A DNA stretch of 64,000 nucleotides, taken from assembly GCF_010365785.1 (NCBI RefSeq), contig NZ_CP048387.1, forward strand, positions 682,001-746,000. The letters run 5' to 3'. Positions 4,026 to 5,377 of the stretch are shown here, piece by piece. A model generated the notes under the pieces. It saw only the letters and a program-made list of their open reading frames with translations, was not told the DNA's origin and did not search any database. Position numbers and translations under genes: made by a program. Each line of letters begins with the position of its first letter. Positions within the stretch are counted from its first letter, which is position 1. This stretch comes from Spiroplasma sp. TIUS-1 (GTDB lineage Bacteria; Bacillota_I; Bacilli_A; Mycoplasmatales; Mycoplasmataceae).

Positions 4026-5025
4026 CTTCAGTTTCAACAGAAACACCCATTACATATGAAGACCCATTACCAGAAAAGAAATCATGATTTTCATCAGCTC
4101 GTGCTGATAATTGGTTAAATATTTCAGGTTCAACCTTTGTTTCTTCTTCAGTAAATGGTGAATCATATCCAAGGTTTTGTAAAAATTTACCTGCGTTATA
4201 AATACTAAATTTAATTGCTTCATCTGCAATATCAAATCCTTCATATAATTCTTTTAAATATTCTTTTTCTAAATCAATTAGTTCATACATTAAATCAAAC
4301 ACAAACTTCTTCATTTCTTCTTGCTTTTCTTTTGATAAATTTTCTATTTTTCTTTGGTATTTATAACCACTGTAGTAGTTGTGAATTACTTTGTCACGCA
4401 ATATCAGGCGAATTATATCTGATGTATTTGGTAACTTATTTCTAGCAGAAAGATAGAAAGGTAAGTAAAATCCTCCATATAATAAGAAACCTGGCATTAA
4501 CGCTGCAGCTACTTTTGATTTCAATTCATCTTTACCAACATAAAAAGGTATTAAAGCATTTGCACGTTCTTGTAGTGACTTACATCCAACTACTCATTCA
4601 TGTGCTTCTTCAATTTGTTCACTTGAACAAAGTGTTGAAAATATGTTTCCATAGGATCTAGCGTGTACACCAACCATAAATGCAAAGTTTGCATATATTA
4701 CTTGTTCATGATCAGTTTGCGAACTAGGTATTTGAGCTATGTCACCGATTGTCGCTTGAATAGTATCAAGCAATGTTAAACCCGTGAATGTTCTTGTTAT
4801 TAATTGTTGTCATTCTTTTGACAAAGCCCTTCATGATGGTAAGTCATTTGATACTGGTATTTTTTCTGGTAATCAAAAATTTTGAGTAATTCTATTTCAT
4901 ACTTCTAAATCTTTTTCATCATTGATATTATTTCAGTTCACCGATCTTAATGAACCTTTAAAATTGTTTTTAACATACTCAAGTGGAGACACTGAGTTGT
5001 TGTAATATTTTTGGACTTTAGCCAT
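4015..5025 (-). CDS. nrdF: Ribonucleotide reductase small subunit, metal-free class Ie type (VPK)
   Basis: This 336-residue R2-like protein would hold the radical that starts ribonucleotide reduction in NrdE. Aligning by motif, Asp87 (LTLLD), His121 and His215 of the metal site remain. The three other carboxylates are replaced: Val118 in FMVGVHARSY (normally FMExVHA), Pro178 in LMPGFLLYGGF (normally LES) and Lys212 in RDKVIH (normally RDEAVH). This Val-Pro-Lys pattern is the signature of class Ie, described from Mesoplasma florum, where a Tyr modified to DOPA carries the radical without metal. The matching tyrosine here is Tyr125 in HARSY. Several TGA codons encode Trp. The start has a strong ribosome binding site (AAAGGAGGT). 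It is the first gene of the operon and follows the riboswitch at 5115-5353. Confidence 0.95.
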
Positions 5026-5114: not shown

Positions 5115-5353
5115 TAAAAAGCACGATTACAAATCGTGGCTTAATTAATTATAGTAAAGACAATATTAAAAATGACTTACACTACTTCTCTCTAGCCAGG
5201 AAAGAATATGTTTTTAATTAATAGGCCGGTATCCTGACTTAGATTCATATGTTTAGCGCCTTCTCGGTTTCCCAATGGATAATGCTAAACAATCCTCATT
5301 ACAGTTGCTGGTACAGTTTGAGATTGACACTCAATTCCCTGACACCTTATTAA
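5115..5353 (-). promoter_or_regulatory. Cobalamin-type riboswitch with terminator, ahead of nrdFIE
   Basis: On the minus strand the aptamer runs from 5353 to about 5215. The conserved blocks are GGTGTCAGGGAA, then ACTGTACCAGCAACTGTAA, TATCCATTGGG, GAGAAGGCG and AAGTCAGGATACCGGCC. TTAATAAGG and CCTATTAA close the outer stem. A hairpin at about 5178-5200 has a CCTGGCTAG loop that can kiss the CCAG of the aptamer. A terminator at 5115-5140 (GCACGATTxxxAATCGTGC type, then T-rich) follows, about 90 bases before nrdF. The architecture predicts that the corrinoid represses the B12-independent reductase by transcription termination. This is better conserved than the copy at 1030-1274. Confidence 0.92.
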
Positions 5354-5377
5354 TTTTTTGCTTTTTTATTTCATAAA

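Follow-up and report, generated by a model that had tools for sequence, protein, structure and literature searches.

The minus-strand segment 5365-5112 of the 64,000-nucleotide stretch of Spiroplasma sp. TIUS-1 DNA analysed here (the window) is, with high probability, a repressing, transcription-terminating cobalamin riboswitch that governs the class Ie ribonucleotide reductase operon nrdFIE as a member of a small B12 regulon. We infer its ligand, its physiology and its direction of control, the last (B12 turning nrdFIE off) from the anatomy of the leader and the presence of the class II reductase NrdJ. Since the genome holds NrdJ, the adenosyltransferase BtuR and a second switch before a predicted B12 importer, the element very probably shuts off nrdFIE when B12 is available.

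The nrdFIE leader

A search of the whole chromosome (811,521 bp, one contig) with the covariance model RF00174 returned two matches, at 5365-5207 and 1282-1120, both on the minus strand. The first lies directly upstream of nrdFIE on the same strand and scores 67.8 bits (E 1.4e-14 for the window), more than twice the gathering score of 31.5 bits; it spans the full model (1-189) with its core blocks intact. This is in agreement with a preliminary description, made from the sequence, which had reported a cobalamin aptamer with all core blocks and had proposed this covariance search. The extent that it gave, 5115-5353, was right for the element and missed the ends of P1, the aptamer starting at 5365. 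The kissing loop and the terminator ahead of nrdFIE that it had described were also found, as follows.

The aptamer is followed by the P13 hairpin UUCUUUC-CUGGCUA-GAGAGAA (5206-5186), whose loop L13 offers CUGG (5199-5196) to CCAG of L5 (5311-5308). This L5-L13 kissing loop has 4 bp, compared with 5-6 bp in most relatives, and the pair adjoining these four shows compensation from A-U to C-G between lineages. An intrinsic terminator, AAGCCACGAUU-UGU-AAUCGUGCUU with a U-rich tract, occupies 5142-5112 (stem 5142-5119, core 5138-5122). Its 5' foot is overlapped by the pentamer AGCCA (5141-5137), which is complementary to UGGCU of L13 (5198-5194) and is the putative antiterminator partner. Just upstream of the leader, at 5391-5379 on the minus strand, the string GTATGCTAATAT reads as an extended -10 element; it is common to the nrdF leader and to that of cbrT (see below), upstream of each, and looks like a candidate promoter. 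The window also contains a purine riboswitch (RF00167, 51.5 bits) at 22343-22249 on the minus strand, upstream of a 544-residue permease-like frame (22176-20542).

The class Ie operon

The genes downstream are, in order, nrdF, nrdI and nrdE, all on the minus strand. nrdF (5025-4006; 339 residues) has a ribosome binding site GGAGG at 5034-5030 and its start codon at 5025. nrdI (4046-3528) encodes the flavodoxin (TIGR00333, 172 bits; PF07972), the 5' end of its longest frame overlapping nrdF, and nrdE (3525-1366) encodes an R1 subunit of 719 residues (TIGR04170, 958.5 bits). When NrdF was aligned with two proteins each of the VPK (from Mesoplasma and Streptococcus), QSK and class Ib types, V118, P178 and K212 were found at the sites of the three metal-binding glutamates of class Ib (E/E/E), while D87, H121, Y125 and H215 were retained. 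The closest solved structures are 6gp2 and 9r5l, followed by 6ebo and 7mmp. Because the three glutamates are replaced by V118, P178 and K212, NrdF is assigned by alignment to class Ie of VPK type and is predicted to act as a metal-free, DOPA-modified protein; the preliminary description had likewise taken the enzyme to be metal-free. R2e proteins occur as VPK and QSK variants, and the order nrdFIE is found in virtually all VPK genomes (PMC11846895).

Predicted import, adenosylation and use of B12

The preliminary description had predicted a class II NrdJ elsewhere in the genome, and the genome search located one, intact, at chromosome positions 359074-361578 (PRK08115, 1295 bits against a cut-off of 854; TIGR02504, 579.6 bits against 400). 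Adjoining it, at 361670-362203, is a corrinoid adenosyltransferase of the BtuR/CobO type, which scores 142.7 bits with PF02572 (cut-off 25.7) and falls under the NCBIfam equivalog cut-offs. Synthesis of cobalamin, said beforehand to be absent from mollicutes, is not evident here, a search for CobS having given only a sub-threshold fragment. No B12 user besides NrdJ was detected, since no protein with the B12-binding domain PF02310 scored over the cut-off in the 24 genomes searched and no QueG was found in the 12 searched for it.

The second aptamer (1282-1120, minus strand; 64.6 bits, E 1.1e-13) also covers the full RF00174 model, 1-189, and was not mentioned in the preliminary description. 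Its expression platform (1119-1033) comprises P13 (1119-1098) with CUGGUU in L13, a terminator at 1060-1039, GCCACGAU..AUCGGUGGU, and a U tract, so that the leader of cbrT (1282-1033) repeats the L13/AGCCA design of the nrdF leader with a terminator of its own. The gene that follows (1012-488, minus strand) encodes a membrane protein of 174 residues without a Pfam or NCBIfam match. A profile built from 16 aligned relatives matched 6fnp_A (E 8.3e-15), the sole solved structure below E 0.001, and the protein is thus CbrT-like, an S-component of the ECF type; 6FNP is the structure of ECF-CbrT, for which import of B12 is proven (PMC5997447). For the protein in the window a role in cobalamin transport is predicted from the riboswitch and from the presence of btuR or nrdJ beside its gene in relatives, and B12 uptake in this genome is predicted to be explained by this homologue. 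The presumed partner of CbrT is the EcfT subunit of the shared ECF module, encoded in the window at 29959-29003 on the minus strand (PF02361, E 2.3e-39 at G000:C1:711153-711926). As predicted from their sequences, import, adenosylation and use of B12, with two sensors for it, form a single consistent set.

This set bears on two other readings of the leader. One is that it is a relic which has lost B12 binding and serves only as constitutive attenuation of nrdFIE. Decay in such an order is seen in one relative (G079), in which nrdJ, cbrT and btuR are broken beside degenerate riboswitches, but both aptamers in the window match the full model with intact core blocks and NrdJ, BtuR and CbrT are intact, and we consider a relic very improbable. 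The other reading changes the main ligand and leaves the regulatory logic as it is: the switch could respond chiefly to a corrinoid other than cobalamin, such as cobinamide or the cobamide of other microbes. Several corrinoids trigger cobalamin riboswitches (PMC9600662), and CbrT of Lactobacillus delbrueckii binds and transports cobinamide as well (PMC5997447); such a ligand is unlikely here, if less so than a relic.

Proposed mechanism of switching

In the favoured scheme, that of repression by B12, CbrT, under the control of its own cobalamin riboswitch, would bring in B12, which BtuR would convert to adenosylcobalamin for consumption by the oxygen-independent class II enzyme NrdJ. With corrinoid bound to the nrdF leader, kissing between L5 and L13 would stabilise P13, AGCCA would be left free, the terminator would form and nrdFIE would be off. 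At low B12, L13 would instead use its UGGCU to pair with AGCCA in the 5' foot of the terminator; the terminator would be blocked and nrdFIE transcribed. As the UGGCU:AGCCA pairing uses bases of L13 itself, L13 could either kiss L5 or block the terminator, never both. Folded alone, the segment after the aptamer forms P13 and the terminator (-19.2 kcal/mol), and when the 3' half of the terminator is left off the transcript the fold contains UGGCU:AGCCA, the last two bases of AGCCA belonging to the core terminator stem. The same switch design has been demonstrated by mutation in the metE riboswitch of Priestia megaterium (PMC10653944); that riboswitch controls another gene, and the competing pairing here, known from sequence, is made by the loop bases of L13 themselves.

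Comparison between lineages is consistent with this scheme. The partners in L13 and the terminator foot co-vary, being GGCU/AGCC in the window, GGUC/GACC in G106 and G156, GGGG/CCCC in G031 and GGGGAUG/CAUCCCU in G144, and by this evidence their complementarity is preserved across lineages through compensating changes. When L13 sequences and terminator feet were swapped among ten leaders, complementarity dropped (permutation p 0.001), and swapping of L5 and L13 partners gave p 0.005; the ten leaders are not fully independent and two of them fit poorly, G051 having no good L13-terminator complementarity and G112 having an insertion and lacking a clear terminator.

The same anatomy bears on the opposite polarity, in which B12 would switch nrdFIE on. 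Activating corrinoid riboswitches are known, for example that of A. halodurans cobT, but riboswitches of this type have bases common to P13 and the terminator, which are mutually exclusive (PMC10653944), whereas in the nrdF leader P13 (5206-5186) and the terminator (5142-5119) have no bases in common and both form in the minimum-energy fold, and the third pairing, UGGCU:AGCCA, competes with both. The presence of a B12-independent enzyme beside NrdJ also favours repression, and activation is extremely unlikely.

Distribution among the Mycoplasmatales

Of 198 Mycoplasmatales genomes sampled, some of which may be incomplete, 15 have a cobalamin riboswitch above the cut-off directly upstream of nrdF, and the NrdF behind it is of VPK type in all 15. 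Among the 14 genomes that have NrdE and an intact NrdJ, 11 carry the switch, whereas about 93 genomes have NrdE and no intact NrdJ and 4 of these carry it (Fisher p 1.4e-9, from counts made by hand that take no account of kinship). These four are G019 and G051 (both with a split nrdJ and an intact btuR), G056 (intact btuR) and G079. G056 has thus kept the switch and BtuR with no NrdJ detected, and among the genomes that have the switch and lack NrdJ no match to the monomeric class II reductase (TIGR02505) passed the cut-off. The riboswitch of G079 is visibly degenerate, at 38 bits. This genome (L119, G079:C2:105000-124900) presents a decaying B12 regulon in which nrdJ, btuR and cbrT are broken, both riboswitches are degenerate and nrdFIE is intact.

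Coupling of the switch to NrdJ is not obligatory, since G076, G118 and G140 have NrdJ and NrdE and no switch at nrdF; the nrdF leader of G118, like that of G100, gave no cobalamin riboswitch match. In Streptococcus, Lactobacillus, Atopobium and two Mycoplasma-type genomes, the search before the class Ie genes gave no cobalamin riboswitch. G159, the only other sampled genome from the genus of the window, gave no match to a cobalamin riboswitch, NrdE, NrdJ, BtuR or CbrT and by sequence appears to lack any class I and class II reductase. Weak matches to the riboswitch, of 24-30 bits and below the cut-off, occur in three NrdJ genomes (G060, G111 and G140; L122, L123 and L128). In G060 and G111 the weak match precedes a series of three to four frames, perhaps a B12 transporter of another type.

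In related genomes cobalamin riboswitches are also found upstream of CbrT (in many genomes), of the gene for a class III NrdD, next to which a protein of 171 residues is encoded (G112), and of a deoxynucleoside-salvage cassette (G061 and similar genomes) with genes for a nucleoside phosphorylase, a deoxynucleoside kinase (dNK), a transketolase, a KDPG-type aldolase and a nucleoside deoxyribosyltransferase. The salvage cassette and class III nrdD, with the riboswitches before them, are at L085 1500-6683 and L083 1479-4539. All of these wider targets serve either a B12-free supply of deoxynucleotides or the acquisition of B12. To our knowledge there is no earlier report of deoxynucleoside salvage controlled by B12.

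Shortened leaders in relatives without the B12 genes

In one related genus, six genomes (G037, G057, G103, G109, G126 and G153) are without NrdJ, BtuR and a true CbrT, three of them having distant S-component matches of 27-39 bits, and have kept a shortened nrdFIE leader (L226, L227, L230, L231, L232 and L234, around 1380-1578 on the plus strand). This retains P1, P4, L5, P13, the antiterminator and the terminator, and has a plain hairpin in place of the P6 arm with its CCATTG/GAGAAGG core. It scores below the RF00174 cut-off or escapes the Rfam model. All six share the same 20-base P13, and L5 reads GUACCAGCA; a search with the P13 pattern allowing three mismatches gave, beyond the exact matches, mostly chance matches. 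The leaders are 78-91% identical between species, compared with 60-87% at the four-fold codon sites of nrdF and 54-77% in the stretch after the terminator, and this higher conservation suggests that selection acts on the leader. In P1 (p 0.026) and in the replacement hairpin (p 0.033) pairing is better between native partners than between swapped ones, these values coming from six related sequences. RNAalifold gave a mixture of competing pairings, which was not taken as structure. The shortened leader may, tentatively, be a new class of regulatory RNA that arose from the cobalamin riboswitch and senses a ligand other than B12, perhaps a nucleotide, although we think this somewhat less likely than its being untrue; slow decay of a cobalamin riboswitch is a possible alternative. 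These leaders would be a natural experiment in the loss of a riboswitch or the change of its ligand.

Relation to known systems

Control of class I reductases by B12 has precedents. In Streptomyces coelicolor the class Ia operon nrdABS has a B12 riboswitch beside NrdJ (Borovok et al., 2006, as related in PMC4991794), and in Bacillus methanolicus control of nrdAB by AdoCbl has been inferred (PMC4342826). Both resemble the present case in having a cobalamin riboswitch before a B12-independent class I reductase, and S. coelicolor, by the same account, also in the class II NrdJ alongside and in repression by B12, which is predicted in TIUS-1; the preliminary description had remarked that in other bacteria such switches repress a B12-independent reductase where a class II enzyme is available. 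The targets there are NrdAB. In TIUS-1 the target is nrdFIE, of class Ie, and the organism is a mollicute of reduced genome which apparently imports B12.

In the same position, before the class Ie operon of a related mollicute, Mesoplasma florum has a terminating riboswitch whose ligand is 2'-deoxyguanosine (PMC12268651), and in Mesoplasma grammopterae a 2'-dG-I riboswitch (RF01510, 87 bits; L138 1632-1695, plus strand) was found upstream of class Ie nrdF. The Mesoplasma aptamer is unrelated and senses a product of the pathway instead of the cofactor that a replacement enzyme needs. The cluster nrdJ-cbrS-cbrT-pduO of L. delbrueckii, a B12 auxotroph, likewise joins importer, adenosyltransferase and NrdJ as a functional unit (PMC5997447), whereas TIUS-1 has an adenosyltransferase from the BtuR/CobO family (PF02572), and its cbrT adjoins nrdFIE, each with its own riboswitch.

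The preliminary description knew of no pairing of a cobalamin riboswitch with class Ie, and no report of one was found. Searches of the open-access literature gave no report for cobalamin riboswitch with mollicutes and ribonucleotide reductase or with Spiroplasma, and those combining riboswitch, class Ie and ribonucleotide reductase gave other subjects only. While B12 control of class Ia is known, class Ie thus appears to be unreported as a target of cobalamin riboswitches.

These findings suggest why some mollicutes keep two reductases, a class Ie enzyme for use without B12 and the oxygen-independent NrdJ for use with it, with an RNA switch between them. B12 is predicted to be both nutrient and signal for bacteria usually characterised by their dependence on hosts or nucleosides, and related genomes carry the logic of the B12 switch further, to class III nrdD and to a deoxynucleoside-salvage cassette.
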